Notes under the pieces: model-generated
Seen by the model: the letters and a program-made list of their open reading frames with translations, nothing else
The model's database searches: none
Told to the model about the DNA's origin: nothing
Origin: Candidatus Blautia faecipullorum
GTDB lineage: Bacteria; Bacillota; Clostridia; Lachnospirales; Lachnospiraceae
Assembly: GCA_019115125.1 (NCBI GenBank)
Contig: DXEG01000008.1
Span: 1-64,000, forward strand
Length of the DNA: 64,000 nucleotides
Direction: 5' to 3'
In this document: one piece after another, positions 21,072 through 46,178 of the stretch
How positions within the stretch are numbered: the first letter of the stretch is position 1
How the letters are laid out: each line of letters begins with the position of its first letter
Program-made: the position numbers and the translations under genes

Positions 21072-21072
21072 T

Positions 21073-25011: not shown

Positions 25012-25980
25012 TTACCGAGTGCCGGGTGAGGAAATGCCGGAAATTTTTCTCCAGTATTCGCACAGTGCGGATATACGCGGATCATTTGGATCAGGAGTTA
25101 CAATAATAGGAAAAAGTATATAATTATATTCTTTTCCGTATTCGGACAGACACCGGTCGGCTTCTTTGAGAATCTGCTCCGTTGTCGCGTCAGGATATCC
25201 TGCGGGTCCGAAAGAATCCCAGCCGCCTTCGATGATCAGACGTCCTTTGTATTTCTTTTCCAGGAACGGTATATCGTTCATAACCTGGGCGGAGCTCCAG
25301 ATCTGAACGCCCATTTCAACAAAGTCATCCAGCACCTCCTCGCATTTGCCGCAGAGATGTTCGGCAACAATCACTCCTTTTGCCGAAATGGAGTGCAGAA
25401 TGCGGGCCTGGTGAGGTTTGATGAGTTTTCGGTAAACCTGGGGGGACATGAACAGGCTTTGGGAGGTGGCAAAGTCGTCAAAATAAGTGACAACGTCCGG
25501 TTTATAAGCGTCGATCATTTTTTCAATACATCGAATATTAAAATCAGCCATTTCACCGAAAAATTCATCGCAGGCTTCAGGGTCTTCAATAAGAGAGCAT
25601 AAAGTGTTTTCAAAACCCATAAATGCAACCATCCGCTGATAAAGTCCAACGGCAAAGTTTACATTAATTACTTTATCGCTGCGGTCGGTTCCCGCAAGAT
25701 CTGTTTCGGCGGCTGCTTTAAAATCATACATTGAGAGATCTGGAAAATGAACATACTGTTTCCAGTCAGCAATATCGTCAAACAGGATACACCCGGGCTT
25801 TGTGATTGCTCCTTCGGGAGTGATCACCCATTCTACCCCAAAAGCATCAGGTCCGTTTTTTTTCGGATGATTTACGAGACTGTCAGCAAGACCGCAGGTC
25901 TTATACAACTCATAATAAATAGGACGGAATTCGGGAATTTTGCCATCGAGTAACAACTGAAAATTTTTTCTTTGGGTCAT
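25012..25980 (-). CDS. UroD-family methyltransferase (MtaA/O-demethylase MTI-like), copy 1
   Basis: 322-residue uroporphyrinogen decarboxylase-fold protein. In anaerobes without haem synthesis genes nearby, this family supplies Zn-dependent methyltransferases that move methyl groups between substrates and corrinoid proteins. The Zn motif H-x-C is present as H208-L-C210 (AEHLCGKCEEVL). Other family features are VTYFDDFATSQSLFMSPQVY and IEGGWDSFGP. It is transcribed divergently from the SDR/GRE genes and has a promoter carrying the same LacI-type operator as the transport operon. The corrinoid protein and methyl-THF methyltransferase at 29837-31373 are its likely partners. Confidence 0.8.
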   Translation of the reverse strand: MTQRKNFQLLLDGKIPEFRPIYYELYKTCGLADSLVNHPKKNGPDAFGVEWVITPEGAITKPGCILFDDIADWKQYVHFPDLSMYDFKAAAETDLAGTDRSDKVINVNFAVGLYQRMVAFMGFENTLCSLIEDPEACDEFFGEMADFNIRCIEKMIDAYKPDVVTYFDDFATSQSLFMSPQVYRKLIKPHQARILHSISAKGVIVAEHLCGKCEEVLDDFVEMGVQIWSSAQVMNDIPFLEKKYKGRLIIEGGWDSFGPAGYPDATTEQILKEADRCLSEYGKEYNYILFPIIVTPDPNDPRISALCEYWRKISGISSPGTR

Positions 25981-26017
25981 GGTGATATCTCCTTTTCTAA
26001 ATTTTTGTACAATTTAA

Positions 26018-26067
26018 GCAATCGATTTCGTGAATTTATTATAGCAGCATTTTAATTATACTGTCAA
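26018..26067 (-). promoter_or_regulatory. Promoter and LacI-type operator of UroD copy 1
   Basis: On the minus strand, TTGACA (26067-26062), an 18-base spacer and TATAAT (26043-26038). The operator GCAATCGATTTC (plus strand, 26018-26029) begins about 2 bases downstream of the predicted start and is identical to that at 17221-17232. Confidence 0.75.
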
Positions 26068-26139
26068 GAATCTGCGGATGATAATAACTGTGAAAAAGAT
26101 AGTAGTCTGATATTTCAGAAAAACAAAGGAGAAGTTTAT

Positions 26140-27141
26140 ATGGCAGATAAAGAATTATTAAAAGGAAAAGTAGCGATAGTAACGGGTTCCGGGCAGGGAG
26201 TGGGACGAGCTTTGGCAATCGCTTTAGCTGATCATGGAGCCATGGTGGTGACGAATAACCGCAGACCAGGGTCTACCGGAAATGCTATGCTCACAGAAGA
26301 CCAGTATGACAGACTGTCCGATGAAAAAAAGGAATGGTATGACCGGGTACAGAAAGAGCTAAATGGAGATGCCGAGACTACAGCCCAGACTATCCGCCGT
26401 CGAGGCGGTGAGGCAACCGCATGTTTTGCGGATATTTCAAAATTTGACGAGGCCGACAGACTGATACAGACAGCGGTAAATACATACGGAGGGGTAGATA
26501 TTCTATGTAATGTGGCGGGGGCATTTGGGATCTGCGACATTGACCAGATTAGCGAGGAACTATGGAATAAGGTTACAGATATCAAACCAAAAGGATACTT
26601 CCATACAATGCGTTTTGCTATTCCCCATATGAAAAAGAAGCATTTTGGGCGGATTATTAATTGTACCAGCCGAGCGTTTATGGGAGATGTAATTAAACAC
26701 GCAGAATATTGCGCCGCGAATGCAGGAGTAGTGGGGCTGACCAGAGGAGCGGCTGTGGAGCTTAGGGAGTATGGGATCACATGCAATGCTTTTGGACCAT
26801 TTGCCAAGACACGGGCAGCTTATGAGCTGGAAGCTCTGTCGCTTGCGTCAGAAAAGACGGTTCATTCCGAAGGAATGGGCAAGATTCCCACTTTTGAGCA
26901 GACTCCGGATCCATGCATGATTGTTCCTTTCCTTCTTTATCTGGCCTCGGACTACGGGGAGAAGATCAGTGGAAGTGTATTTACTCTTTCAGGAAATACG
27001 ATACAGCTTCACCAGGAGCCTGTTGTGTGCCGGATGCTTGAAAAATTCGGAACAGAGCCCTGGACTGTGGAAGAAATAGTCAGGAGCGCGCCGCGGTCAC
27101 TTTTGAAAAATTATCAGAGTATCGCCGATGGAATCCTATAA
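26140..27141 (+). CDS. Short-chain dehydrogenase/reductase with atypical YxxxN active site
   Basis: 333 residues, longer than classical 250-residue SDRs because of an insertion near residue 55-85. NAD(P) binding is through VAIVTGSGQGVGRAL, and the NxxG region is LCNVAGAFG. The catalytic serine is probably in INCTSRAF. The usual YxxxK reads Y-C-A-A-N (AEYCAANAGVVGLTR), so the catalytic lysine is replaced by asparagine; the codon is AAT. It is otherwise intact and well placed (AAAGGAGAAG site) ahead of GRE1. It may have altered catalysis or a binding role. Confidence 0.85.
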   Translation: MADKELLKGKVAIVTGSGQGVGRALAIALADHGAMVVTNNRRPGSTGNAMLTEDQYDRLSDEKKEWYDRVQKELNGDAETTAQTIRRRGGEATACFADISKFDEADRLIQTAVNTYGGVDILCNVAGAFGICDIDQISEELWNKVTDIKPKGYFHTMRFAIPHMKKKHFGRIINCTSRAFMGDVIKHAEYCAANAGVVGLTRGAAVELREYGITCNAFGPFAKTRAAYELEALSLASEKTVHSEGMGKIPTFEQTPDPCMIVPFLLYLASDYGEKISGSVFTLSGNTIQLHQEPVVCRMLEKFGTEPWTVEEIVRSAPRSLLKNYQSIADGIL

Positions 27142-27249
27142 TCACAAAATTGTATTAACAAATTAAAATTGTTTATATTGAAAATATTGGCCAATACACA
27201 ACCTCTTTTTTCTTTTTTGTCAGAAAAAAGTATGGCATAATATAAGTGA

Positions 27250-27261
27250 TAAAACGATTTA
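27250..27261. promoter_or_regulatory. Candidate LacI-type operator upstream of GRE1
   Basis: TAAAACGATTTA is a CG-centred palindrome with one mismatch pair, 40 bases before the GRE1 ATG and just after a TATAAT-like element around 27236-27243. It resembles, but is not identical to, the GCAATCGATTTC sites. Confidence 0.35.
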
Positions 27262-27300
27262 CGGAGACTGCAAAAATAAAAAGGAAAAGGAGGAAATGAA

Positions 27301-29748
27301 ATGTATGCTTTTAAACCAGTAACAGCACGGATTAACAAGATGCACATGTTAATTCGAGACAGAGTGATTCAGACAGATGCAGAACGGGCCATGATCACAA
27401 CGGAGTTTGTGAAGGAAAATGAATATATGGTTCCTTTTCTCCGCCGTCCCATGATCTTAAAATCCATATGTGAAAAAATGACGATTCGTGTGGAAGATTT
27501 TGAGCTTATTGTGGGGAATACTTCTAAGAATTTTTGCGGAGCAGGGATTCAGCCGGATTGGACGGGAAGTGGATGGATCCCGGAAGCGATAGAAGAGGGC
27601 AGATGGACGCTTAAAGAAGATGGACTGTACCATAATCCGGAATCGGATGGACTGCCTATGTCCATGGCGCTGGAGGATTATAAAGCGCTGATATCTATCC
27701 GGGATTACTGGAAAGGACGCACATACAGTGACGTGGCGGCATCCTGGCAGCCCCAGGGATATGAGGAGCTATGTCGTGTCAACGTATCGGCTACCCGGAC
27801 GGGGATGCCTTTGTTGAATATTCCTTCCGGACACCTGACCGCAGGTTTCAAAAAAATAATAAACAAAGGTTACCGTTCGATCAGAAGTGAAGCTCAGGAC
27901 TGGCTGGACAGTCATGTAAATGATTTAATGGGGGCAGATGCGGAAAAAGCAATGTTTTATACGGCGGCGGTGATCGTATGCGATGCGGCATCTGTTTATG
28001 TACGGCGTTATGGGGAAAAATGTCTGGAAAAATCAGAAAAATGTCAAAACGAAAACCGTAAAGAAGAATTGAAGACTATGGGAGAAAGTCTTTTGTGGAT
28101 TTCAGAAAATCCGTGCAGAACCTTCTGGGAAGCCTGCCAGCAGGCAATTCTTTATCAGCATTTACTGAAAATGTCAAATCTGGGTGACGCAGGATCCTTT
28201 GGCAGGTTTGACCAATACACCTGGCCTTATCTGAAAAAGGAGCTGGAGGAAGGCACATTGACAATGGAACAGGCTCAGGAGATCACAGACGCGTTTTTTT
28301 TGAAGATTAACTCCATGTATACAGGAGGAGATCCGAAGATCGTGCAGATTACTGGAATTGGAAATACATATCTCCATACCACGCTTGGAGGAACGGATCC
28401 GGAAACCGGGGAGGATGCGTCGAATCCCGTGACTTATATGGCCCTGGAAAGTGTCGGCCGTCTTGGGCTACATGATCCTACCATTTCTCTCAGGATCAAC
28501 AAAGATACTCCGGATAGTCTTTGGAAACTTGCCATTGAGACATCACGGCGTGTAGGCGGACTTCCATTGTTCCAGAATGATGATGTGATTGTGCCTGGGA
28601 TAGTAAGAGAGATGGGATTTTCATTGAAGGATGCCAGAGACTATGCGATTATAGGATGCCAGGAAATCACTGGTTCTGGTAATGATTATTCTGCGGCGAA
28701 TGGAGTAGTTCCTCCGCATGCCACTATTCATTATAGTATTGTCCTGGATATGGCGATCAATAATGGGATAAATCCAATGAATGGAGAACAGTGCTCCATT
28801 CATACAGGATATTTGTATGAAATGACTTCTTTTGAGGAAGTAAAAGCAGCATGGGCAAAACTGGCAGAGTATTTTCTCAGGGCGCAGGTTTCTTTAAATA
28901 ACTGTATGGAATATTTTGTACAGTATCTGACTCCCCATGCAATTCTTTCCATTTCACTGGAAGGATGTATGGAGTCTGGAAAGGACTGCACTGCCGGAGG
29001 GGCAAAATATAATTCTTACGGCGGTACAGCTACCGGACTGGCTACCGTAGCGGATTCTCTGACTGCGATCAGATATATGTGTTTTGACAAAAAGCTTTGT
29101 ACCACAAAGGAACTTTATGATGCAGTAATGGCAAACTGGGAAGGGTATGAACCACTGCGCCAGCAGATTATCAATGAAGTGCCTCATTTCGGCAATAATG
29201 ATCCCTATGCAGATGAGCAGATGCAGTGGGTTGTAACTGTTTATGCGGATATGTGCTGCAGGTGTTCTTCAAGCCGGACCCCAATTTTTAAAGCCGGATT
29301 GTACGGTGCGGCGGATCATGTGCATCAGGGGTACACGACATGGGCGACACCGGACGGGCGATTCGCGGGACAGCCTATTGCGGATGCGGCCAGTCCGGTA
29401 CAGGGGCGTGATACTCATGGGCCAACGGCGGTTTTTTCATCTTCGCTGTGTTATGATCATTCGCGGTTTATGGATGGCGTGTGTCTGAATATCCGTATGC
29501 ATCCCTCTGCCCTCAGTAATGAAGAAGGAATTTGCAAACTTCGGGATATGATCAAGACATATATGCAGGACGGCGGAGCGGAGGTACAGTTTAACGTAGT
29601 ATCTACAGAGACAATGAAAAAAGCTCAGGAAAAACCTGAGGAATACCGCAATCTGGTCGTCCGGATAGCCGGGTACTCTGCTTATTTTGTGGAGCTGTCC
29701 AAAGATTGTCAGGATGACCTGATCGCGAGAAATGAGAATATGATCTGA
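27301..29748 (+). CDS. Glycyl radical enzyme 1 (PFL/eliminase superfamily, unassigned clade)
   Basis: 815 residues, full length for GRE dehydratases and lyases. Catalysis uses a backbone glycyl radical at Gly791 (VVRIAGYSAYFVELSKDCQDDLI), which generates a thiyl radical at Cys453. Around the cysteine the sequence is IIGCQEITGSG, so the C-x-E pair typical of eliminases (C453/E455) is kept, but the usual GCVEP reads GCQEI. The GGAKYNSYGG segment is also conserved. It is oxygen-sensitive, cytosolic and needs a radical SAM activase, probably the one at 38150. It is closely paralogous to the gene at 31397. The substrate is unknown; choline lyase, hydroxyproline dehydratase or propanediol dehydratase context genes are not present. 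Confidence 0.9.
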   Translation: MYAFKPVTARINKMHMLIRDRVIQTDAERAMITTEFVKENEYMVPFLRRPMILKSICEKMTIRVEDFELIVGNTSKNFCGAGIQPDWTGSGWIPEAIEEGRWTLKEDGLYHNPESDGLPMSMALEDYKALISIRDYWKGRTYSDVAASWQPQGYEELCRVNVSATRTGMPLLNIPSGHLTAGFKKIINKGYRSIRSEAQDWLDSHVNDLMGADAEKAMFYTAAVIVCDAASVYVRRYGEKCLEKSEKCQNENRKEELKTMGESLLWISENPCRTFWEACQQAILYQHLLKMSNLGDAGSFGRFDQYTWPYLKKELEEGTLTMEQAQEITDAFFLKINSMYTGGDPKIVQITGIGNTYLHTTLGGTDPETGEDASNPVTYMALESVGRLGLHDPTISLRINKDTPDSLWKLAIETSRRVGGLPLFQNDDVIVPGIVREMGFSLKDARDYAIIGCQEITGSGNDYSAANGVVPPHATIHYSIVLDMAINNGINPMNGEQCSIHTGYLYEMTSFEEVKAAWAKLAEYFLRAQVSLNNCMEYFVQYLTPHAILSISLEGCMESGKDCTAGGAKYNSYGGTATGLATVADSLTAIRYMCFDKKLCTTKELYDAVMANWEGYEPLRQQIINEVPHFGNNDPYADEQMQWVVTVYADMCCRCSSSRTPIFKAGLYGAADHVHQGYTTWATPDGRFAGQPIADAASPVQGRDTHGPTAVFSSSLCYDHSRFMDGVCLNIRMHPSALSNEEGICKLRDMIKTYMQDGGAEVQFNVVSTETMKKAQEKPEEYRNLVVRIAGYSAYFVELSKDCQDDLIARNENMI

Positions 29749-29836
29749 CAGGCAAGATCAAAAATATGAACAGCAGGAGGAAACCCTCAGAAGGGTACCT
29801 GTATGCAAAAAAACATGGCAGTAAGGAGGTAACAAG

Positions 29837-30640
29837 ATGATTATTATCGGTGAAAAAATAAACGGCTCCATCCCGGTGGTGGCGGATGCTATCGCTGCCA
29901 GGGACGCGGAATTTATCAAAAACCGGGCCAGAATGCAGGCGGAGGCAGGGGCAACATATATTGACTGCTGTGCCTCTGTACCGGAGGAGACGGAAGCGGA
30001 GACCCTCAAGTGGATGATCGACTGCATCCAGGAGGCGACGGATCTCCCTATCTCCGTGGACAGCCCCAGCGCCAAGGTTCTGGCTGAGGTGATTCCTTAT
30101 TGTAAGAGACCAGGGCTTGTAAATTCTGTATCCGGCGAGGGAGACAAGATGGACGTGATCTTCCCATTGATCGCGGATACCAAATGGGAAGTGATCTGTC
30201 TTCTGTCCGACGACACGGGGATCCCCAAGAGTGCCGAGGACAGGCTGAAGGTTTTCGACAAAGTGATGGAAAAGGCGAAGGACTACGGGATCAGCCCCTC
30301 CAGGATGCATATCGATCCCCTGGTGGAAATGCTCTGTACATCCGAGGACGGGATCGCCATGAATGTGGAGGTGATCAGCACCGTTCGAGAACGCTATCCA
30401 AGCATCCATATCACGGCGGCGGTCAGCAATATTTCCTTTAATCTTCCAGTGCGGAAAATGATTAATCTGGGATTTACCGTTCTGGCTATGAACGCGGGGC
30501 TGGACAGCGCGATCCTGGATCCGACCAACAGAGACATGATGGGAGTGATCTACGCCACGGAGGCACTGTTGGGAGAGGACGAGTACTGCATGGAGTATAT
30601 CAGCGCGTATCGAGAAGGGATCTTCGGCCCGAGAAAGTAA
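29837..30640 (+). CDS. Methyltetrahydrofolate:corrinoid methyltransferase (DHPS-like, AcsE/MTII type)
   Basis: 267-residue TIM barrel of the pterin-binding family. It starts with IIIGEKINGSIPVVADAI and carries the ATYIDCCASV, LPISVDSP and HIDPLVEML elements seen in AcsE and in methyltransferase II of O-demethylase systems. These enzymes carry methyl groups between a corrinoid protein and tetrahydrofolate. It is separated by 97 bases from the corrinoid protein gene and lies between two GRE genes. Codon choice is more GC-rich than in the flanking GREs, suggesting high expression or separate ancestry. Site TAAGGAGGT. Confidence 0.88.
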   Translation: MIIIGEKINGSIPVVADAIAARDAEFIKNRARMQAEAGATYIDCCASVPEETEAETLKWMIDCIQEATDLPISVDSPSAKVLAEVIPYCKRPGLVNSVSGEGDKMDVIFPLIADTKWEVICLLSDDTGIPKSAEDRLKVFDKVMEKAKDYGISPSRMHIDPLVEMLCTSEDGIAMNVEVISTVRERYPSIHITAAVSNISFNLPVRKMINLGFTVLAMNAGLDSAILDPTNRDMMGVIYATEALLGEDEYCMEYISAYREGIFGPRK

Positions 30641-30737
30641 TGAAAACATCAAACAGTATAAAAATATCTGGGATGAAATTGCGGAAGCTATCCCACAGTT
30701 AGAAAAAGACGAATCAAAAAATAGGAGGTAGACAAAA

Positions 30738-31373
30738 ATGGCAGGAATTCAGGAAGTTTATGATCTGGTGGCAAAAGGAAGGGCAAAAAAGGTGGCTGCG
30801 GCAGTAAACGAAGCGCTGGACGCAGGCTGCGATCCCACTGAGATCTTGAATCAGGGCATGATCGCGGCTATGGACGAGGTAGGCGCCAAGTTTAAAAACG
30901 GGGAAATTTTTGTTCCCGAAATGCTGGTAGCCGCGAAAGCCATGAAAAACGGAGTGGAGGTTCTGAAGCCCCACCTTGCGTCCGGCGTGGCGGGAGCGGC
31001 CGGAAAGGTGATCATTGGAACTGTATCCGGCGACCTTCATGACATCGGAAAGAACCTGGTAGCTATGATGCTGGAATCCTCAGGCTTTGAGGTGATCGAT
31101 CTGGGCGTGGATGTGCCCAAGGAAAAATTTGTGGAGGCATATGAGGCCAATCCTGACACGAAGCTAATCTGTTGCTCCGCTCTTCTGACGACGACCATGA
31201 ACGCCATGAAAGAGACGGTGGCGCTTCTGAACAGCGCGCCTTTCCGGGGCTGTATTAAGGTCATGGTAGGCGGCGCGCCTATCAGCCAGGAATTCGCGGA
31301 TGAGATCGGAGCGGACGCTTACACAGAGGACGCGGCGTCCTGCGCCCAGAGAGCAAAGGAACTGGTTTCATAG
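30738..31373 (+). CDS. Corrinoid (cobalamin-binding) methyl-carrier protein, MtaC/MtbC/OdmA-like
   Basis: 211 residues. The N-terminal four-helix cap (VYDLVAKGRAKKVAAAVNEAL…EIFVPEMLVAAKAMKNGVEVL) is followed by a B12-binding Rossmann domain. The cobalt-ligand motif is D99-x-H101-x-x-G104 (GDLHDIGKNLV), with VMVGGAPIS near the C-terminus. It would carry the methyl group from the UroD-type methyltransferase to the MTII encoded upstream. No corrinoid-reductive activator (RamA-like) is in the window, so it must be supplied elsewhere. Confidence 0.93.
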   Translation: MAGIQEVYDLVAKGRAKKVAAAVNEALDAGCDPTEILNQGMIAAMDEVGAKFKNGEIFVPEMLVAAKAMKNGVEVLKPHLASGVAGAAGKVIIGTVSGDLHDIGKNLVAMMLESSGFEVIDLGVDVPKEKFVEAYEANPDTKLICCSALLTTTMNAMKETVALLNSAPFRGCIKVMVGGAPISQEFADEIGADAYTEDAASCAQRAKELVS

Positions 31374-31396
31374 CAAAATGAAAGGAGGCCGCAGGA

Positions 31397-33844
31397 ATGT
31401 TTGAATTGAAACCTGTATCGGAACGAATGAAGCTTATGCACCGCACGATTCGGAACCGGGTAATCCAGAATGACGCAGAACGTGCCCTGATCATCACGGA
31501 TGTATTTCAGAAAAATGAGAATCTGGTTCCCATGCTGCGGCAGCCCCTTGTACTAAAAACCATTTGCCAGCGAATGACCGTACGGGTGGAGGACTTCGAG
31601 ATGCTGGTGGGGAACAGTGCGAAGAATTTCTGTGGGAACGGCATAGAACCGGACTGGATCGGAATAGGCTGGATTCCTGAGGCCATAAGTTCAGGAAAGT
31701 GGACTATGCATAAAGACGGCCTTTACCACAATCCACCGGGAGAGGAACTGAGGCTTTCCATGGCGCCGGAGGATTATGAAGCGCTGCTGTCGATTAAGGA
31801 CTATTGGGAAAATCATACTTATGACGATCTGATTAAACCCTGGACTCCTCCGGGATATGAGGAGCTGGCAAGAATAGAATGTTCTCCTGCGGGAAAGGGG
31901 AAACCATTCTTTCGGACAGCATCCGGACATTTGACGCCAGGATTTTCAAAAATCATTCACAGAGGGTATGCGAGCATACGGAAAGAAGCACAGGATTGGC
32001 TGGACGCTCATGTGAATAATCTGATGGGGGAGGATGCAGAGAAGGTTTTGTTTTATACAGCAGTTGTAATGAGCTGTGACGCAGCTTCCATATACGCGCG
32101 AAGATATAGCGCCAAATGTCTCGAAAAAGCTGCTGAATGTAACGACCCTCATCGAAAGGCAGAGCTGGAGAGTATGGCGGAAAGTCTGGAGTGGATTTCA
32201 GAAAAACCGTGCCGTACTTTCAGGGAGGCATGCCAGCAGACTCTTTTGTATCAGTATCTGCTTAAAATGTCCCATCTCAGCGACAGCGGGTCATATGGAA
32301 GATTTGATCAGTATACATGGCCGTTCCTGAAAAAAGATCTTGAAGAGGGACGCCTGACAATGGAAGAAGCACAGGAAATCGTAGATTGCTTCTTCCTGAA
32401 GGTAAATGCCAGCTATTCCGGCAGTGATCCTTATTTTGCTCAAATTATCGGAATTGGGAATACATATCTGCATACTACCATTGGAGGCGTGGATCCGAAA
32501 ACAGGAAAAGATGCAACGAATCCTGTCACTTATATGGTGCTGGAAAGCCTGGGCAGGATGAAACTGCATGATCCGACGATTTCTCTCAGGGTGCACAAAG
32601 ATACGCCGGATGATCTGTGGGTAACTGCCATTGAGACGTCCAAGCTGGTGGGCGGCCTTCCTTTGTTCCAAAATGACGAGGTGATCATACCGGGAATGAT
32701 GAGAGAAATGGGCTTTACGTTGGAGGACGCCAGGGATTATGCCATTATAGGATGTCAGGAGATTACTGGTTCCGGAAATAATTATTCCTGTGCAAACGGC
32801 ACCTGCCCGCCGCATTCTTATATGCATTACAGTACACTTTTGGATATAGCTGTCAATGATGGACGAAATCCCAGAAATGGTGAACAGGGTTCTCTGCACA
32901 CAGGATTTTTGTATGATATGAAGTCCATTGATGAAGTGAAGGAGGCATGGAAACAAACCGCACGCTATTACTTAAAAGCCCAGGTCTCTATGAATAATTA
33001 TGTAGAGTATTTTATTAAATATCATACCCCCTATCCGATTCTTTCTTTATCCCTGGACGGCTGTATGGAATCGGGAAAGGATTGCACTTCAGGCGGGGCA
33101 AAATATAATTCCTATGGTGGGACGGCCACGGGTCTTGCTACAGTTGCGGATTCTCTTACCACGATCAAATATATGTGCTTCGATAAAAAGCTTTGTACAA
33201 CAAGAGAGCTGTATGACGCAGTGATGGCAAACTGGGAAGGCTATGAGCCGCTGCGCCAGCAGATTATTAACCAGGTTCCCCATTTTGGGAATAATGATCC
33301 TTATGCGGACGAGCAAATGCGTTGGGTAACACACACATATCACGAGCTCTGCAGGGAATGTTATTCTGCCCGTACCCATATTTATAAGGCGGGGCTGTAC
33401 GGAGCGGCGGATCATGTTGGACAGGGATATACCACCTGGGCTACCCCGGACGGGCGTTTTGCCGGAAAACCTATTGCAGACGCGGCCAGTCCGGTACAGG
33501 GGCGTGATACCCATGGACCTACAGCGGTGTTTGCTTCGTCCCTTTGCTATGATCATTCCCGTTTTATGGATGGCGTATGTCTGAATCTCCGCATACATCC
33601 GTCAGCGGTCAGCAATTCAGAGGGGATGATCAAACTCGCCAGTATGGTAAAAACATATATGGCTAATGGAGGAGCGGAAGTACAGTTTAATATTGTGTCC
33701 ACGGAAACAATGAGAGCGGCCCAGGAAAATCCCGAGGAATACCGGGATCTGGTAGTTCGTATTGCAGGATACTCCGTATATTTTGTGGAGCTTTCCAGAG
33801 ACTGTCAGGATGATCTGATCAGCCGTACGGAAAATATGATTTAG
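31397..33844 (+). CDS. Glycyl radical enzyme 2 (close paralogue of GRE1)
   Basis: 815 residues, colinear with GRE1 throughout and most similar in the C-terminal half. Active cysteine C453 lies in IIGCQEITGSGNNYS, with E455 two residues on, and glycyl radical G791 is in VVRIAGYSVYFVELSRDCQDDLI. The GCQEI variation is shared with GRE1, so the pair form one clade. Differences are concentrated in the N-terminal half (for example SAPAGKGKPFFRT-type loop against SATRTGMPLLNI in GRE1), as expected for divergent substrates. It follows the corrinoid gene by 23 bases and has AAAGGAGG upstream. Confidence 0.9.
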   Translation: MFELKPVSERMKLMHRTIRNRVIQNDAERALIITDVFQKNENLVPMLRQPLVLKTICQRMTVRVEDFEMLVGNSAKNFCGNGIEPDWIGIGWIPEAISSGKWTMHKDGLYHNPPGEELRLSMAPEDYEALLSIKDYWENHTYDDLIKPWTPPGYEELARIECSPAGKGKPFFRTASGHLTPGFSKIIHRGYASIRKEAQDWLDAHVNNLMGEDAEKVLFYTAVVMSCDAASIYARRYSAKCLEKAAECNDPHRKAELESMAESLEWISEKPCRTFREACQQTLLYQYLLKMSHLSDSGSYGRFDQYTWPFLKKDLEEGRLTMEEAQEIVDCFFLKVNASYSGSDPYFAQIIGIGNTYLHTTIGGVDPKTGKDATNPVTYMVLESLGRMKLHDPTISLRVHKDTPDDLWVTAIETSKLVGGLPLFQNDEVIIPGMMREMGFTLEDARDYAIIGCQEITGSGNNYSCANGTCPPHSYMHYSTLLDIAVNDGRNPRNGEQGSLHTGFLYDMKSIDEVKEAWKQTARYYLKAQVSMNNYVEYFIKYHTPYPILSLSLDGCMESGKDCTSGGAKYNSYGGTATGLATVADSLTTIKYMCFDKKLCTTRELYDAVMANWEGYEPLRQQIINQVPHFGNNDPYADEQMRWVTHTYHELCRECYSARTHIYKAGLYGAADHVGQGYTTWATPDGRFAGKPIADAASPVQGRDTHGPTAVFASSLCYDHSRFMDGVCLNLRIHPSAVSNSEGMIKLASMVKTYMANGGAEVQFNIVSTETMRAAQENPEEYRDLVVRIAGYSVYFVELSRDCQDDLISRTENMI

Positions 33845-33860
33845 AGGACAGGAGGACAGA

Positions 33861-35837: not shown

Positions 35838-35864
35838 GATCAGGAAGCAGAGGAGGAAAAGGGC

Positions 35865-37034: not shown

Positions 37035-37062
37035 ATGAAGTCGTCGCATATGTGGACAAGGG

Positions 37063-37956: not shown

Positions 37957-38149
37957 GCTGTCGCCCTCCTTTAAATCTTTTTATGATGAAAGTATAAAAA
38001 AAGTCGAGAGAAATTACAAGCTTATTTAGTTGATATTATTAAAATATGTCTGTTAATAAAAGGGCGAAAGGATATGAGAAATACCAGAAGATGCCACGGG
38101 ATAAAAAATGCAGTATAGATACAGCGATGCAAAAAACGGAGGAAAAGAT

Positions 38150-39109: not shown

Positions 39110-39135
39110 ATATAGCGGAGAAAAGGAGTCAGAAT

Positions 39136-40113
39136 ATGAAAAAAATGGTGTCTTTATTTGCAAAAAGAAATGAGCTCTACACAATGCTGAATGAGAAAGC
39201 GCGGATTTATGCGGCGGAAAAGGGAATTGATTTTGAATGGAAGCCAATGGAACCCTACACAGTTGAGGCTTGTATTGATGCCCTAAAGGATGCGGACTGC
39301 GGCCTGATCGATGTAGAGCCTTATGATGCGAAGATTTTTTCCCGAATATGTGAAAGGAACAAGCTGCTGATCCGTTTTGGCGTGGGATTCGACGCGGTGA
39401 ATCTTGAGGATGCCGCAAAATATGGGATCCGGATCGCCCGGACTCAGGGGGCAAATGCTTCGGCGGTTGCGGAGTACGCGTTGTTAATGATTCTCACTCT
39501 CCGGCGGAAGCTTATGGCTGGTATCCAAAGCGTAAGATGCGGAAGCTGGGAAAAGGAAGTGGGAAATGAAACAATTGGCGCAACGGTGGGAATTCTTGGA
39601 TTTGGCGCGGTGGGAAAGGCATTCGCGAGACTTTTGGGAGGATTTGGCTGCCGTATTTTGGCTTATGATACTTACCAGGATCAAATTGCTGCTAAAGAGC
39701 TTGGAGTGGAATTTACAGATGCAGAAACCATATTTCGTGAATGTGATTCCATCACTGTTCATTTGGCGTTAAATGAAAATACAAGGGGATTTGTAAATGA
39801 GGAAAGACTGGCGCTGATGAAAAAAGACGCGGTGATCGTGAATACGTCCCGCGGTCCGGTGATCGATGATGCGGCATTATTGGCTGTCTTGAAGAACCAT
39901 CAGATTGGCGGCGCGGGACTGGATGTCTTTGCCCAGGAACCGCTTCCGCTGGATTCAGAATATCTGACACTGGACAATATGATCTATTCTCCCCATGCGG
40001 CAAGCCAGTCCGTTCAGTCCCTATGGAATATATATAAAACGGCGATAGATATTGCGGATGGATTTTTCACAGGTAATGAATCAGAGTTTGTAAAGAGATG
40101 CTGGCTGAACTGA
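39136..40113 (+). CDS. D-isomer specific 2-hydroxyacid dehydrogenase
   Basis: 325 residues, related to D-3-phosphoglycerate and glyoxylate/hydroxypyruvate reductases. NAD(H) binding is through GATVGILGFGAVGKAFA followed by an acidic residue in ILAYD. The catalytic arginine, glutamate and histidine are in NTSRGPVIDD, VFAQEPLP and YSPHAASQS. It is sandwiched between the activase and GRE3, so it probably reduces or oxidises a 2-keto or 2-hydroxy acid intermediate. Site AAAAGGAG, 26 bases after the activase stop. Confidence 0.9.
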   Translation: MKKMVSLFAKRNELYTMLNEKARIYAAEKGIDFEWKPMEPYTVEACIDALKDADCGLIDVEPYDAKIFSRICERNKLLIRFGVGFDAVNLEDAAKYGIRIARTQGANASAVAEYALLMILTLRRKLMAGIQSVRCGSWEKEVGNETIGATVGILGFGAVGKAFARLLGGFGCRILAYDTYQDQIAAKELGVEFTDAETIFRECDSITVHLALNENTRGFVNEERLALMKKDAVIVNTSRGPVIDDAALLAVLKNHQIGGAGLDVFAQEPLPLDSEYLTLDNMIYSPHAASQSVQSLWNIYKTAIDIADGFFTGNESEFVKRCWLN

Positions 40114-40140
40114 TACCTTAGCTGAAGAAAGGAGTTTATT

Positions 40141-42540
40141 ATGTATGAATTTAAACCATTGACAGACCGCATAAAAAAACTCAGAGAACGCTACAGGACG
40201 ACGCCCGTAGTGCTGGACTCAGAGCATGCCCGTCTGGTAACAGAGGCATATAAGAAATATTCACATGAATGTGCAATTTTGAAGCGCGCCAAAATGATGT
40301 ACTATATCTGCGAAAACCGGACGCTGAGGGTGGAAGAAGACGAACTGATCGTTGGAAACATGGGACTCCATTACCGTGGAACCAGTATCAACCCGGATTA
40401 TGGAATGGAGTGGCTGATTGATGAATTGGATACCGGAGAATTTGATAAACGCGGCGTGCAGTTGGAGCACATGGAGCTGTCCCGGGAGGACCGGGAAGTT
40501 TTTCGGGAGATAGCTCCATTCTGGAAAGAAAACAGCGCTTCCGCTTTTATTGATAAGGCTTTTCCGCCGGGGTTTGAAACAGTTTTAGATGCCGGTGTTT
40601 TATCTCACAGAGTTAAAGGCAATGCAGATATGCCCACAGGACATTTTTCTGCGAATTATGAAAAGCTTTTGTCCAAAGGCCTGTCCGCAATCCGCCAGGA
40701 AGCCACGGATAAACTGGACGCCATGTTTGGAAATATTCAGGCCGAAGATCCGGAGAAATATCTGTTCTACGAGGCTATGGTAATCATCTGCGACGCAATG
40801 ATTCTGCTTGCAAAGCGTTATGCATCACTTTGTTTAAGAAAAGCGGAGCAGGCGGAGGGAAAAAGGAAGAAGGAACTGCTGATCATGGCGGACTCTCTTA
40901 ACCGTATTATGGCAAATCCCTGCGTCACATTTCAGGATGCAGTGCAGGCAACCTTTTTATACCAGCTTGTTCTGGCGCTGGATGGAAATCTTCATGGTCT
41001 TACATTCGGACGCTTTGACCAATATGCATATCCATATCTTGAAAAAGATCTTCGCGAGAAACGCATTTCAGAAGAGTATGCCCAGGAACTCGTAGACTGC
41101 TTTTTTATTAAAATATGCGACATGTTCAAAGGCCGCTCGCATTTTGTTTCCCAGGGAGCGGGCGGATACACCTCGGGACAGCAGATGAGTCTGGGCGGAG
41201 TGGATAAGGAGGGAAAGGATGCTACCAATAAACTTTCGTATATGCTTTTAGAAGCAAGCGCCCGTCTGGTACTGCATTCTCCGCCCCTTTCGCTGCGTAT
41301 TCATAAAAATACGCCAAAAAAATTATGGGAATGTGCTACAGAATGTACCAAACGTGTCGGGGGGATCCCTACATTTCAAAATGACGATATCATTATTCCA
41401 ATGATGGTTAGAGAAGGGTATACTCTTGAGGACGCCAGAGATTACTGTATCGTAGGCTGTGTAGAACCCTCGGGATCGGGAAATGATTTTCCTGCCTGCG
41501 GCGGGCCTCATGCAAAGTGCTACTTGAATATGACAAATTGTTTGATCGTTGCCCTGAACGACGGAATAAATCCATTGAATGGAAAACAGAGTGGCCTTCA
41601 TACAGGCAAGCTGTTAGAAATGACCAGCTTTGAGCAGGTGCTTGAGGCATATAAACGTCAGAATGATTATTTTGTTCAGTGGCATATCTCGCTTAATAAT
41701 ATGGCTGAGTATTTTACGCAAAAGCTTTTGCCATTGCCAGCGCTGTCTGTAACCCTGGATCATTGTATGGAATCCGGAAAGGACGCGACGGCAGGCGGGG
41801 CAAAATATAATGGCTGCGGAAGCGCGGTTATAGGCTGCGGAACAGTTGCAAACAGTCTTGCGGCGATAAAATGGGCAGTTTTTGATAAGAAAATCTGTAC
41901 AGCACAGGAATTCTATCATGCGTGGATGGCGAATTGGAAAGGCCATGAGGAACTGCGGCAGAGAATCATTACTCAGGCACCCCACTATGGAAACGGATCC
42001 GAGGAGGCAGATCGTCTGGCTGCCTGGGCGATGGATATTTACGCACAGAAGTATAACAGCGGATCATTTATCAGAGGAAATCTCAAAGCAGGGCTTTTCT
42101 CGGTTTCCGGGCATATCCCGATGGGGAAAAGCACTTTTGCGTCCCCGGATGGCCGCCTGTCCGGAGAACCAGTATCTGACGGTATTTCACCCTCCCAGGC
42201 TACGGATAAAAAAGGTCCGACGGCAGTTCTTACAGGAGTTGCAAAGCTTAAACAAAGCCATTGTCCGAATGGAACGTTGCTGAATATGAAATTTCATCCG
42301 AAATCTGTAGAAGGCCAGGAGGGAATGGAAAAACTGATCCGTTTAGTGCAGACCTATTTTGCAGAGGGCGGTATGCATATCCAATATAATGTTATTGGAT
42401 CGGATACTTTGAGAGCCGCCCAGAAAGAGCCTGACAGGTACAGGGATCTGGTGATCAGAGTGGCTGGATTTTCCGCCTATTTTGTTGAACTTTACAAGGA
42501 TCTCCAGGATGATTTGATCAGTCGTACGGATCAGATATAA
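40141..42540 (+). CDS. Glycyl radical enzyme 3 (eliminase-type, distinct from GRE1/2)
   Basis: 799 residues. Glycyl radical residue G776 is in VIRVAGFSAYFVELYKDLQDDLI. The active cysteine C440 lies in CIVGCVEPSGSGNDFPACGGP, giving the canonical GCVEP with E442 as the probable base. GGAKYNGCGSAV is also conserved. The canonical motif resembles glycerol, propanediol, choline and related C-O or C-N lyases, but specificity residues cannot be assigned by eye. It is clearly less similar to GRE1 or GRE2 than they are to each other. It follows the 2-hydroxyacid dehydrogenase by 27 bases. Confidence 0.9.
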   Translation: MYEFKPLTDRIKKLRERYRTTPVVLDSEHARLVTEAYKKYSHECAILKRAKMMYYICENRTLRVEEDELIVGNMGLHYRGTSINPDYGMEWLIDELDTGEFDKRGVQLEHMELSREDREVFREIAPFWKENSASAFIDKAFPPGFETVLDAGVLSHRVKGNADMPTGHFSANYEKLLSKGLSAIRQEATDKLDAMFGNIQAEDPEKYLFYEAMVIICDAMILLAKRYASLCLRKAEQAEGKRKKELLIMADSLNRIMANPCVTFQDAVQATFLYQLVLALDGNLHGLTFGRFDQYAYPYLEKDLREKRISEEYAQELVDCFFIKICDMFKGRSHFVSQGAGGYTSGQQMSLGGVDKEGKDATNKLSYMLLEASARLVLHSPPLSLRIHKNTPKKLWECATECTKRVGGIPTFQNDDIIIPMMVREGYTLEDARDYCIVGCVEPSGSGNDFPACGGPHAKCYLNMTNCLIVALNDGINPLNGKQSGLHTGKLLEMTSFEQVLEAYKRQNDYFVQWHISLNNMAEYFTQKLLPLPALSVTLDHCMESGKDATAGGAKYNGCGSAVIGCGTVANSLAAIKWAVFDKKICTAQEFYHAWMANWKGHEELRQRIITQAPHYGNGSEEADRLAAWAMDIYAQKYNSGSFIRGNLKAGLFSVSGHIPMGKSTFASPDGRLSGEPVSDGISPSQATDKKGPTAVLTGVAKLKQSHCPNGTLLNMKFHPKSVEGQEGMEKLIRLVQTYFAEGGMHIQYNVIGSDTLRAAQKEPDRYRDLVIRVAGFSAYFVELYKDLQDDLISRTDQI

Positions 42541-42574
42541 AGAGAGGTGACCTGCTATAACTGAAAAAGGGCCG

Positions 42575-43924
42575 TTGCAGCATGAAGAAAATAAAATGGG
42601 AGTAAGGCCCGTTCCAAGACTGCTGATCACTATGGCCGTGCCCATTATGATTTCCATGTTGGTACAGGCTTTATATAATATTGTGGACAGTATTTTTGTC
42701 GGGCATCTTTCGTCAGAGGCTTTGACAGCAGTTTCTATGTCCTATCCCTTTCAGACGCTTATTGTAGCAGTCGGCAGCGGCCTCTCCATCGGTATCAATG
42801 CATATTTATCCAGAAGCCTCGGAGAAGGAGAGCTAAAAAAAGCCAATGCGGCAGCAGTAAATGGAATATTTCTCAGCTTTGTGGTTTATGTGCTGTTTGC
42901 AATATTTGGAATATTTGGAAGCCATTTTTATTTTGCCGCCCAGACTGGTCAGAAAGAAATCATAAAATATGGAACAGACTATCTTTCGGTTTGCCTTACC
43001 TTTTCGTTAGGAGCTTTTATGCAGATGACAATGGAAAGATTGCTGCAGTCTACCGGAAATACAGTGCACTGTATGGTCTGTCAGGGTGTCGGGGCGGTTA
43101 TGAATATTGTTTTAGATCCGCTGCTGATTTATGGATTGCTGGGATTTCCAAGACTGGAGGTTATGGGAGCTGCCGCCGCTACTGTGATCAGCCAATTTGT
43201 AGGCGCGTGTACGGGCTTGTACCTGAATATACGTAAAAACAGAGAAATCAGGTTTTACTTTAGGGGATTCAGGCCGGATTTTCCTATTATCTGGGAAATC
43301 TGTAAAGTAGGAATACCGACAATGATTACACAGTCTTTGGCATCTGTCATGACTTTTTCGCTGAATCAGATCATGCTCATGTTTTCGTCGGTGGCAGTTT
43401 CAGTGCTTGGTGTGTATTTCAAACTTCAGAGTTTTGTATTTCTGCCGGTTTCCGGTATTACAGACAGCATGGTTCCTATCGTTGCCTATAACTATGGAGC
43501 AAAAAGAAAAAAGAGGATCACGGATGCCCTGTTTTTTGCCACGCTTGTTTCAACAATCATTCTATGTTTGGGTTCTGTGATGTTCCATATTGTACCGGAA
43601 ACATTGATTGGGCTGTTCAGCACGGATATACGGATGCTGAAGCTGGGAGTTCCTGCTGTGAAAGCAATTAGCCTGAGTTATGTATTTGCCGGGGTAACGG
43701 CGATTTTTCCGGCGTTCTTCCAGGCGCTTGGATATGCGGTATACAGTACATTGTTATCGGCAATACGCAGAATCGGCATTATCGTTCCGGTCTCCTGGAT
43801 TCTGGCGTCGCAGTTTGGGCTTGGAGCTGTGTGGTACGCTTTTCCTATTGCCGAGTTTGTTACCATGACATTATGTTTCCTTTTGTACAGAAGGATTTAC
43901 CGTTCAGTAATTAAAAAGATATAA
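42575..43924 (+). CDS. MATE-family efflux transporter
   Basis: About 449 residues with twelve predicted membrane helices. PRLLITMAVPIMISMLVQALYNIVDSIFVGHLSSEALTAVSMSYP is the standard MATE N-terminus, and an equivalent repeat occurs in the second half (GIPTMITQSLASVMTFSLNQIM). MATE proteins export organic cations or drugs using Na+ or H+ gradients. TTG 42575 follows AAAAAGGG; ATG 42596 is the alternative start, with a weaker site. Location inside the catabolic island suggests export of a product or toxic intermediate, but this is inference. Confidence 0.9.
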   Translation: MQHEENKMGVRPVPRLLITMAVPIMISMLVQALYNIVDSIFVGHLSSEALTAVSMSYPFQTLIVAVGSGLSIGINAYLSRSLGEGELKKANAAAVNGIFLSFVVYVLFAIFGIFGSHFYFAAQTGQKEIIKYGTDYLSVCLTFSLGAFMQMTMERLLQSTGNTVHCMVCQGVGAVMNIVLDPLLIYGLLGFPRLEVMGAAAATVISQFVGACTGLYLNIRKNREIRFYFRGFRPDFPIIWEICKVGIPTMITQSLASVMTFSLNQIMLMFSSVAVSVLGVYFKLQSFVFLPVSGITDSMVPIVAYNYGAKRKKRITDALFFATLVSTIILCLGSVMFHIVPETLIGLFSTDIRMLKLGVPAVKAISLSYVFAGVTAIFPAFFQALGYAVYSTLLSAIRRIGIIVPVSWILASQFGLGAVWYAFPIAEFVTMTLCFLLYRRIYRSVIKKI

Positions 43925-44011
43925 AGCGCGGAAGAAAATACAGCCGATATATATCATAATTTTTAGTATTACCTATAAATGAAAAGGGGAAATTTTAAGG
44001 AGGAAAAAGCT

Positions 44012-45001
44012 ATGCTGACAAAAAGAGAAAATCTTATGGAAACCATTCAGGGAGGTCATCCAGACAGATATGTGAATCAGTACGAGGCGTTTCATATAGT
44101 TTCTAAGAATCCATATTCCGCTAATAATCCGAACCCTGAATATGGCGGTAAGCCAGTTGTGAATGCATGGGGAATTATGAGAGCCTGGCCGGAAGGCACA
44201 CCGGGAGTATTTCCGGTTCATGATGAGGAGCATACTGTCTGCAAAGATATTACAGAGTGGAAAAAATATGTAAAAGCGCCTTCCGTTCAATATACAGCCG
44301 AAGAATGGGAGCCTTACATCAAGATGGCAGAGGAAGTGGACCGCCGTGAATATTTTGTTACACATTTCTGCGCGCCGGGAATATTCGAACAGCTTCACAA
44401 TCTTCAGGGGATGCAGGACTGTCTGATCAATTTTTATGAAGAACCGGAGGCGACGCAGGAATTAATTGATTATCTTGTTCAATGGGAACTGGAGTATGCA
44501 GAGGTGATCTGCAGATATCTGAAGCCGGATGCTGTACTGCACCATGACGATTGGGGGAGCCAGATATCTACGTTTATGTCACCGGAAATGTTTAAGGAAT
44601 TTTTATATCCCGGGTATAAGAAAATATATAGTTATTATAAGAGCCATGGCGTACAGGTAATCGTTCATCATTCGGACTCTTATGGCGAAACCTTGGTTCC
44701 TTACATGATCGACATGGGGATCGATATATGGCAGGGAGTTATGACCAGCAATGATATTCCCGGGATTATCGAGAAATATGGCGGAAAAATTACATTGATG
44801 GGCGGAATCGACAGTGCTTCCGTAGACCGGGAGGATTGGAACCAGGAACTGATTGCCCGGGAAGTGCGTAAATCCTGTCTGTCTTACGGTACAAGATATT
44901 ATATCCCGTGCTGTACACAGGGACTTCCAATGAGTATTTATCCGGGAGTACATGAGGCGGTTACAGCGGAAATTGATAAAATGAGTAAGGAAGTTTTCTG
45001 A
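44012..45001 (+). CDS. UroD-family methyltransferase-like protein, copy 2
   Basis: About 329 residues with the UroD fold: LTKRENLMETIQGGHPDRY, VLHHDDWGSQISTFMSPEMF, IDIWQGVMTSNDIPGIIEKYGGKITLMGGID split across the C-terminal half, and YYIPCCTQG. At the position of the H-x-C Zn motif of copy 1 this protein has H220-S-D222 (VIVHHSDSYG), so its metal site differs or it uses other ligands. ATG 44012 is chosen because AAGGAGGAAA precedes it; the frame opens at 43979. It may be a second substrate-specific demethylase for the same corrinoid protein. Confidence 0.82.
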   Translation: MLTKRENLMETIQGGHPDRYVNQYEAFHIVSKNPYSANNPNPEYGGKPVVNAWGIMRAWPEGTPGVFPVHDEEHTVCKDITEWKKYVKAPSVQYTAEEWEPYIKMAEEVDRREYFVTHFCAPGIFEQLHNLQGMQDCLINFYEEPEATQELIDYLVQWELEYAEVICRYLKPDAVLHHDDWGSQISTFMSPEMFKEFLYPGYKKIYSYYKSHGVQVIVHHSDSYGETLVPYMIDMGIDIWQGVMTSNDIPGIIEKYGGKITLMGGIDSASVDREDWNQELIAREVRKSCLSYGTRYYIPCCTQGLPMSIYPGVHEAVTAEIDKMSKEVF

Positions 45002-45115
45002 TTGTTTTTGATTTATTTCCGCGTAATATGACTAAATGAATGAGAGGAAGTTTGTCATATGTGAGCAGGCGGCAGTTTTTTTGGCATAAAATGACAGAAA
45101 TTTTTGGAAAACAAG

Positions 45116-45144
45116 TTGCATTTCAATTTGTAATTGGCTAAGAT
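45116..45144 (+). promoter_or_regulatory. Promoter of the LacI-family gene with an overlapping inverted repeat
   Basis: TTGCAT (45116-45121), a 17-base spacer and TAAGAT (45139-45144). An inverted repeat with arms ACAA.TTG and CAA.TTGT spans 45111-45131, over the -35 region, and could be an autoregulatory site. It lacks the CG centre of the other island operators. Confidence 0.55.
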
Positions 45145-45182
45145 AAAGTATAAGCATTTTTTGGAAATAATTGGAGATCAGC

Positions 45183-46178
45183 ATGACTATATATGATATT
45201 GCCAAACTAGCTGGAGTATCCGCCAGTACAGTGTCCAGAGTGATCAATAATAAGAAGGGCGTAGGAGAAAAAAAGCGCAGGGAAATAGAAGAGCTGCTCG
45301 AAAAACTTCATTACATACCGGACGAAAACGCCCGTAACCTTGTGACACAGAAAACACATATGATCGGAATACTCATGGATGACCTTCAGTCGCGCCATAT
45401 GAATACAGGTACCGTTGATATTCAGAATGTAATTCTGCGGGCCGGCTATTATTGCTTCATCAAATATATTGGTCAGGGGGAGAACGCCCTGGAGGAATCA
45501 ATTAAAGATATGGCAATGAAAAGAGTGGAGGGTGTTTTGTTGATGGGAGTTACTTTCCATAATCACCAACTTCTGGAAAAGGCTCTGAGGAAATATCTGA
45601 GAGATATCCCGGTTATTCTTGTACACCAGACGAAACGCCCGCAGATGGACAATGTCTATGCGGTAGGCGCGGATGAGAGCGAAGGTATCAGAAGATGTGT
45701 GAGGAAACTTGCTGACCGTGGAAGAAGAAATCTGGTACTTGTGATCGATAAAGGCAGAACCAGTAAGAAATTGATCAGAGATTCATTTATGGAAGCAGTC
45801 AGGAATATACCGGGTATAGAGGGACATGTTTATATGGAGGTGGACGCCACAAGATCCGGAGGGGAAGGTATTGTAGAAACAATTTTAGAAGATACCCCCG
45901 GCGTTGACGGAATGCTTTGTGTAAACGACAGTATTGCGATTGGGACAATTTATGGTATGCAGAGCAAAGGTAAAAGAGTACCGGAAGACATTTCTGTAAT
46001 AGGCGAGGATAATTCGGAATTGTGTGAAGCTTGTAAACCGCGGCTGACATCTATGGATACTATGCTGAGATTATCCACCGTTTTGTCCGCCCATCTTCTT
46101 ACAGATATTCTTGATGGAAGAACCCGTAACCATCAGACCACAATGGAAATGGAAATTATAGACCGGGAAACGGTATGA
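45183..46178 (+). CDS. LacI-family transcriptional regulator
   Basis: 331 residues. The N-terminal HTH and hinge MTIYDIAKLAGVSASTVSRV…GVGEKKRREIEELLEKLHYIPDENARNL is canonical. A periplasmic-binding-type effector domain follows (HMIGILMDDL, VEGVLLMGVT, DGMLCVNDSIAIGTIYGM, ISVIGEDNSE). An in-frame TTG at 45171 is possible, but ATG 45183 has GGAG at 6 bases. As the only LacI-type gene in the window, at the end of the island, it is the obvious candidate to bind the GCAATCGATTTC sites at 17221 and 26018. Confidence 0.92.
   Translation: MTIYDIAKLAGVSASTVSRVINNKKGVGEKKRREIEELLEKLHYIPDENARNLVTQKTHMIGILMDDLQSRHMNTGTVDIQNVILRAGYYCFIKYIGQGENALEESIKDMAMKRVEGVLLMGVTFHNHQLLEKALRKYLRDIPVILVHQTKRPQMDNVYAVGADESEGIRRCVRKLADRGRRNLVLVIDKGRTSKKLIRDSFMEAVRNIPGIEGHVYMEVDATRSGGEGIVETILEDTPGVDGMLCVNDSIAIGTIYGMQSKGKRVPEDISVIGEDNSELCEACKPRLTSMDTMLRLSTVLSAHLLTDILDGRTRNHQTTMEMEIIDRETV

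Follow-up and report, generated by a model that had tools for sequence, protein, structure and literature searches.

A gene island joining glycyl radical enzymes of a putatively undescribed clade with O-demethylase genes in Candidatus Blautia faecipullorum

The window analysed here, the first 64 kb (64,000 nucleotides) of a contig of 85,028 bases (DXEG01000008.1) from Candidatus Blautia faecipullorum (assembly GCA_019115125.1, a genome of 3.5 Mb in 67 contigs), carries an island in which the genes of three glycyl radical enzymes (GRE1, GRE2 and GRE3) are interleaved with those of a corrinoid-dependent methyl-transfer system (Table 1), and it is the apparent coupling of these two kinds of chemistry that concerns us. 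An earlier note on this DNA had named 15 open reading frames (ORFs), which occupy positions 25012-46178; all are intact, and our profile scans agree with the order and families it had given. The island begins further upstream than the note had set, with phosphoenolpyruvate (PEP)-mutase-like genes and a family-5 ABC transporter at 17263-24928.

Judged by their gaps, the plus-strand genes form three runs, namely (i) the ABC transporter to PEPM2, (ii) SDR-GRE1-MeTr-corrinoid-GRE2-OYE-FeADH and (iii) Act-2HADH-GRE3-MATE-UroD2, while UroD1 and LysR are read from the opposite, minus strand. The gaps within the second run measure 159 (SDR-GRE1), 88 (GRE1-MeTr), 97 (MeTr-corrinoid), 23 (corrinoid-GRE2), 16 (GRE2-OYE) and 27 bases (OYE-FeADH); those from Act to UroD2 measure 26-54 bases, and UroD2 is followed by LacI after 169 bases. 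Three of the four PFL-type GREs of the genome are found in the island, as are two of its four UroD matches by tally, the others being on contigs C5 and C47; for two of four to fall within 20 kb of 3.5 Mb, the binomial P is 2e-4.

Table 1. Genes of the island, with window positions and the profile matches behind each assignment.
Gene	Assignment	Position	Strand	Evidence
PEPM1	PEP-mutase/isocitrate-lyase superfamily	17263..18231	+	PF13714
ABC transporter	Family-5 solute-binding-protein type: solute-binding protein, two permeases, two ATPases	18377..23949	+	PF00496, PF00528, PF00005/PF08352
Second permease	Putative second permease of the ABC transporter	20971-21972 (ORF)	+	Assigned as part of the ABC transporter
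PEPM2	Second PEP-mutase-superfamily protein	23966..24928	+	PF13714
UroD1	UroD-superfamily methyltransferase-like	25012..25980	-	PF01208, 54.5 bits
SDR	Short-chain dehydrogenase/reductase, 333 aa	26140..27141	+	PF00106
GRE1	Glycyl radical enzyme, CQEI clade	27301..29748	+	PF02901, PF01228
MeTr	Methyl-tetrahydrofolate:corrinoid methyltransferase (MTII)	29837..30640	+	NF005719, 348 bits (cut-off 259)
Corrinoid protein	Corrinoid protein	30738..31373	+	PF02607, PF02310; DxHxxG...SxL...GG motif
GRE2	GRE1 paralogue	31397..33844	+	PFL-like and glycine-radical domains
OYE	Old yellow enzyme/FAD reductase, BaiCD/bilirubin-reductase-like	33861..35837	+	PF00724; NF041087, 455 bits, under its cut-off of 825
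Fe-ADH	Iron-dependent alcohol dehydrogenase	35865..37034	+	PF00465/PF25137
LysR	LysR regulator	37063..37956	-	PF00126/PF03466
Act	Radical-SAM GRE activase	38108..39109	+	TIGR02494, 302.5 bits (cut-off 174)
2HADH	D-2-hydroxyacid dehydrogenase	39136..40113	+	PF02826/PF00389
GRE3	CVEP-type glycyl radical enzyme	40141..42540	+	PF02901/PF01228
MATE	MATE transporter	42575..43924	+	PF01554
UroD2	UroD-type, candidate MTI of the O-demethylase	43979..45001	+	PF01208, 48.3 bits
LacI	LacI regulator	45171..46178	+	PF00356

GRE1 and GRE2 are 72% identical to each other, and GRE3 is 44% identical to GRE1. All three exceed the curated cut-offs of the PFL-like and glycine-radical domains, and the marks of a GRE are all present, since the thiyl Cys and the loop with the radical Gly are accompanied by a dedicated activase in the island; in GRE1, the residues C453-Q454-E455 and H178 as well as the radical loop RIAGYS are intact. 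Scanning of genome contigs with the GRE1/GRE2 alignment gave 212 relatives, of which the best 80 loci (54-81% identical) were kept. Cys453-Gln454-Glu455 is found in 91 of 91 aligned clade members (GRE1 and GRE2 included), as are H178, H673 and Q676, whereas I456 occurs in 88 and the radical Gly in 89, the other two rows being gapped there. This CQEI signature differs from the CVEP of the five known-GRE alignments examined; the GRE3-type proteins (n = 23) all have Cys-Val and Pro, and 18 of them have Glu.

In the tree, the 91 CQEI members are monophyletic, with weak support (0.53). Adding 18 GRE3-type proteins gives a clade of 109, and adding the remaining ones as well as an unlabelled reference, L010, gives one of 115; the support is 1.0 for each, and the HypD and PFL2/3-type references fall outside the clade of 115. 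GRE1 pairs with its counterpart at locus L011 (1.0), to which GRE2 is sister (0.853). With regard to function, the NCBIfam cut-offs led us to reject for GRE1-3 the known roles of choline lyase, of HypD and of the sulfopropanediol enzymes, and those of the indoleacetate and hydroxyphenylacetate decarboxylases: their best equivalog score is 586 bits (HpfG, cut-off 1000), those for choline trimethylamine (TMA)-lyase, HypD, HpsG and the decarboxylases lie further below their respective cut-offs, and even the broad subfamily TIGR01774 is not reached (493-636 against 678). X-succinate synthases seemed improbable candidates, as Glu455 is kept in the clade and these enzymes are among the lowest by profile. 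Judged by sequence, GRE1 and GRE2 are members of an undescribed clade, and its members in the window have no NCBIfam equivalog. One could imagine that the CQEI enzymes are not eliminases and act as decarboxylases of demethylated aromatic acids, in the manner of the 4-hydroxyphenylacetate or indoleacetate decarboxylases, but we regard this as very unlikely.

The closest known enzymes appear to be the B12-independent glycerol and 1,2-propanediol dehydratases, at ~32% identity. Together with choline lyase, they provide the solved structures nearest to an AlphaFold2 model of GRE1 (pLDDT 91), and they share with the island GREs the Cys-x-Glu and, as far as compared for GRE1 only, the overall fold. 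However, at the position of H281, which together with D447 we take to be the active-site His and Asp of glycerol dehydratase, the GRE1/GRE2 clade carries Pro in 57 and Asp in 21 of 91 members, with His outside the six commonest residues, and the alignment has a gap in the loop of D447. The GRE3-type proteins, in contrast, have His at the H281 position in 21 of 23 cases, as in glycerol dehydratase. Compared with the diol dehydratases, the clade thus has Gln next to the Cys, lacks the His and has a loop of altered shape, and these differences speak for a new substrate class.

Members of the clade occur in Sporobacter termitidis, Papillibacter, Acetobacterium paludosum, Sporomusa acidovorans, Alkalibaculum sporogenes and Alkalibacter mobilis as well as in many rumen, hindgut and digester metagenome-assembled genomes (MAGs). 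Several of these cultured organisms are, we presume, users of methoxylated aromatics. In 97 other genomes (59 of the window's own genus), none of the matches listed of more than ~500 residues exceeded 34% identity to the GREs.

The clade genomes are strongly enriched in the demethylase type of the island, in line with the link that the earlier note had proposed. Two samples bear on this: 48 clade genomes that were reached through their loci and thus are not a random draw, and a class draw of 291 genomes, in which the clade is present (E 1e-150) in six, namely the window's own and five others, leaving 285 clade-negative genomes; Alkalibacter and Alkalibaculum of the 48 seem to be in the class draw as well, as their coordinates are identical. 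UroD2-type genes (E 1e-60) are present in 42 of the 48 and, within the class draw, in 5/5 clade-positive against 7/285 clade-negative genomes, a difference to which Fisher's test was applied. For corrinoid proteins of at least 57% identity among the matches listed, the corresponding figures are 27/48, 5/5 and 8/285; at E 1e-30, the corrinoid protein is found in 42/48 clade genomes, but also in 233/291 class genomes. MeTr (E 1e-60) occurs in 33 of the 48, a count made in clade genomes alone and leaving out the window's own genome. We therefore consider a coupling of clade GREs and demethylation at the genome level to be supported, as far as gene content can tell.

The tally of related GREs rises with UroD density across the 48 genomes (Spearman 0.49, P = 4e-4). 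Its threshold of E 1e-170 to GRE2 lets GRE3-type proteins in as well (the window's own genome scores 3), and the tally ranges from 1 to 20 per clade genome (20 being the number scored) with a median of 5 and values of at least 10 in 9/48. Two of the genomes, the Lachnospiraceae MAG RGIG5636 from sheep duodenum (G105; loci L018, L033 and L136-L143) and RGIG6921 (G112; L144-L151), are ~2 Mb each, have tallies of 20 and 18, respectively, and carry some of their CQE-type GREs in tandem. GCQE was read in 9 of 10 genes of G105 (two of the 10 being identical), in 8/8 genes of G112 and in 5/7 ORFs of a further genome (G144). At least eight distinct CQE-type copies are thus confirmed in each of G105 and G112, the figure of 20 being a tally only. 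In two other MAGs (G111 and G130), 19-21 UroD matches and a related-GRE tally of 13 go along with no detected corrinoid protein or MeTr, which may reflect either assembly gaps or UroD proteins with another function.

The earlier note had assigned the corrinoid genes to an O-demethylase, and this assignment is supported: like the UroD-type aryl O-demethylase systems of acetogens, the genome has UroD2, the corrinoid protein, an MTII above its NCBIfam cut-off, the corrinoid activator RACo (on C5; L111 4884-6395) and AcsB. The corrinoid protein bears the B12 motif and has an MTII beside it in the island, as expected of an O-demethylase, and scores 211.8 bits against TIGR02370, 3.5 below the cut-off of 215.3. 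Three AcsB-type matches (PF03598) together with RACo make the organism look like an acetogen by gene content, and the parts needed to bring a methyl group to tetrahydrofolate (THF) are all present in the genome, most of them in the island. A single match to the pattern E-x14-E-x20-H, presumably the zinc motif of MTI, was found in UroD2 and none in UroD1 or in the UroD protein of C5. On another contig, C12 (L112 8297-11191), a 964-aa protein fuses MeTr and corrinoid domains, its C-terminal part being without assignment.

The island departs from the acetogen systems in that MTI is split from MTII and the corrinoid protein across two GRE-containing runs. The MTI-corrinoid-MTII trio is intact on C5 of the same genome and, for UroD2 homologues, in L023 and L109. 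On C5, a UroD protein (Pfam URO-D, 49% identical to UroD2) is immediately preceded by second copies of MeTr (97% identical at the protein level) and of the corrinoid protein (96%), the three making up the usual O-demethylase trio. Window positions 29823-31366 share with C5 a stretch of 1555 bases that is 90% identical in DNA, and the similarity ends where the two genes end. The MeTr-corrinoid pair between GRE1 and GRE2 is hence best read as a derived duplicate inserted in the GRE run, and the intact trio on C5 suggests that copying went from C5 into this run. The corrinoid pair between two GREs, to which the earlier note had drawn attention, is accordingly not a conserved arrangement but a lineage-specific insertion, and elsewhere the pair lies away from GREs. 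Since the copy is confined to the two genes, with different sequence on either side, it could also be that the pair merely adds methyl-entry capacity and that its position is an accident of duplication. We consider this rather unlikely, because the dN/dS between the copies is 0.032 for MeTr (dS 0.46) and 0.055 for the corrinoid gene (dS 0.37), values that suggest purifying selection keeping both copies functional, and because ribosome-binding-like sites and short gaps are present in the island pair; taken together, these features indicate that the pair is maintained in place or by gene conversion.

The closest relative, MAG RUG12824 (G098), keeps the window order on one contig (L011) for the ABC ATPase (84%), PEPM2 (90%), SDR (77%) and GRE1 (81%, truncated where the contig ends), with no UroD1 between PEPM2 and SDR, so that PEPM2 is directly upstream of SDR-GRE1. 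A second contig (L114) carries GRE3 (87%, cut), UroD2 (76%), LacI (58%) and an Fe-ADH-like protein (37%); here, UroD2 lies 67 bases 3' of GRE3 with no MATE gene between. The MeTr (73-76%) is found on a third contig, which ends directly after it in what seems to be the beginning of a corrinoid gene. From this arrangement, the link of UroD2 and GRE3 looks older than the placement of the corrinoid pair among the GREs.

Within the 80 fetched loci, a UroD gene is near the clade GRE in 17 (among them L055, whose ORF has no Pfam match), a GRE3-type gene in 21, both in 9, an activase in 14, an OYE in 9 and an SDR in 7. For the 66 loci with genome counts, UroD near a GRE was observed in 16 against 5.9 expected (P = 1.3e-4), and when L055 was taken out along with four loci that belong to two related MAGs, in 13/61 against 5.3 expected (P = 0.0016). 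Individual loci illustrate this: GRE1, Act and UroD2 are consecutive genes both in L047 and in its sister L133, from two related MAGs; a GRE2-type gene, Act, OYE and UroD2 lie inside ~9 kb in L132; UroD2 flanks the GRE on both sides in L062; and in L023 a MeTr-UroD2-corrinoid trio is convergent with the GRE. Other parts of the island recur as well, such as an Fe-ADH relative (42%) that has a GRE1-type gene on one side and a GRE3-type gene on the other in Acetobacterium paludosum (L019), SDR relatives (63-77%) in loci with GRE1/2-type genes (L011, L065, L074) and transporter parts near GRE1-clade genes (L046, L050, L078, L011). PEPM1 copies (76%) and 2HADH (45-47%) are found beside GRE2-type genes in L032 and L066, which suggests that the upstream genes are tied to the same pathway. 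A coupling of UroD and GRE genes at the locus level is thus supported as well, although less strongly than that at the genome level.

From our point of view, the island could best be understood as an acetogen's catabolic island for a methoxylated, polyhydroxylated plant compound, whose methyl group would enter the Wood-Ljungdahl pathway after O-demethylation and whose skeleton would be processed by GRE-catalysed radical elimination; we would give this reading a probability of roughly 0.48. The compound would (i) be imported by the ABC transporter, (ii) lose its O-methyl group to the corrinoid protein through UroD2, and possibly UroD1 too, with MeTr handing the methyl group to THF and hence to the Wood-Ljungdahl pathway, (iii) undergo radical elimination of water or another leaving group by GRE1/GRE2 (CQEI) and GRE3 (CVEP), which would use the Cys thiyl and a Glu base after the activase has installed the glycyl radical, and (iv) yield carbonyl or unsaturated products that SDR, Fe-ADH, 2HADH and OYE would reduce or oxidise. 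The substrate, the order of the steps, the elimination chemistry and the meeting of both systems on one molecule we infer; an aromatic or phenylpropanoid type of substrate seems most likely, and the candidates pinitol, quinate, trigonelline, arylglycerol and beta-O-4 dimers could not be told apart.

A number of observations weigh against this reading. The corrinoid protein and MeTr are near the GRE1-type gene in 1/80 loci, which is about chance level, no GRE was found in 20 corrinoid-centred stretches from clade genomes, and the ORFs next to the MeTr of RUG12824 are without a match among the window proteins, so that a conserved corrinoid-GRE operon could be rejected. Among 15 UroD2-type-centred stretches not picked for a nearby GRE, 14 have no GRE and one has a GRE3-type gene; among 17 such stretches outside RUG12824, GRE1/2-type genes occur only in L132 and L133, which were picked for that, and a GRE3-type gene in L128. 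Some clade GREs adjoin housekeeping genes, the UroD1 relatives in 14/80 loci are 25-33% identical and at that level may not all be methyltransferases, and the presence of both LysR and LacI implies at least two regulatory units in the island. At the genome level, 6 of the 48 clade genomes have no match to the corrinoid protein, 15 no MeTr at E 1e-60 and 6, including Sporomusa acidovorans, no UroD2-type gene; moreover, the counts ignore shared ancestry, the genomes are mostly MAGs, and the five class-draw positives represent two families. The neighbourhood co-occurrence that the earlier note had put forward as a check is borne out in part for UroD and not for the corrinoid protein and MeTr, and its GRE-demethylase link in relatives stands where UroD2 adjoins GRE3 (RUG12824) or GRE1-type and activase genes (L047, L133), with most UroD2-type genes away from GREs.

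These observations could also be explained if the two systems were co-inducible neighbours without a shared intermediate, with the GREs acting as dehydratases in the fermentation of a polyol or hydroxy acid and the demethylase serving other methoxylated compounds of the same plant food. The poorly conserved adjacency of MeTr and corrinoid genes, the location of most UroD2-type genes, the very diverse neighbourhoods of the clade GREs and the many UroD genes in genomes with one or two corrinoid genes would all fit such a scenario, which we take seriously while doubting it, as UroD2 is linked to GRE3 and to Act-GRE1 in separate lineages and UroD lies near GREs more often than genome counts would predict.

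Each enzyme kind of the island is already known, and it is their combination that appears to be new. Choline TMA-lyase (CutC) feeds corrinoid demethylation and thus represents a case of a GRE and corrinoid methyl transfer in one methyl economy; GRE1-3, however, score far under the CutC cut-off, and the methyltransferase of the island is UroD-type and not MttB-type. In the literature as covered by titles and the starts of abstracts, without subscription papers and some preprints, no pathway combining a GRE with a UroD/corrinoid demethylase was found. The mlp gene clusters likewise combine UroD-superfamily methyltransferases with corrinoid proteins; the term 'glycyl radical' is absent from the main text of the paper that describes them (PMC10418091).

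Going beyond the pathway of the island, one could speculate that the CQEI enzymes represent a large GRE family which breaks down the skeletons of lignin-, lignan- or polyphenol-type compounds once these are demethylated, for instance by aryl-ether cleavage or loss of benzylic or side-chain hydroxyl groups, and which has multiplied in step with UroD demethylases in anaerobic users of methoxylated plant compounds. We hold this to be an improbable extension, yet if it were true, it would represent an oxygen-free radical route for the breakdown of plant phenolics in herbivore guts. The pathway proposed for the island would itself, if true, join corrinoid methyl transfer and glycyl-radical chemistry, two of the main anaerobic reaction types, in the use of one plant compound and provide a candidate substrate class for a GRE clade expanded in rumen and hindgut MAGs. 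The cultured strains that carry the clade, i.e., Sporobacter termitidis, Acetobacterium paludosum, Sporomusa acidovorans, Alkalibaculum sporogenes and Alkalibacter mobilis, make the idea directly testable.

Across the window, Rfam and tRNA scans gave no matches, and a promoter consensus scan found 35 sites against 31.6 in shuffled sequences, i.e., no excess. Terminator-like sites were in some excess (24 against 15.8 in shuffles) and were not used for any reading. An isocitrate-lyase-type reaction of PEPM1 and PEPM2 was rejected since the KRCGH loop, which we take to be the isocitrate-lyase motif, is present in neither. Away from the island, adjoining genes for an Fe-ADH, an SBD_N/NBD_C kinase and a PdxA-family protein at 443-3884 resemble what we assume to be a four-carbon acid-sugar pathway, and a protein similar to the D component of 2-hydroxyglutaryl-CoA dehydratase is encoded at 54669-56105, adjoining a P-type ATPase gene.

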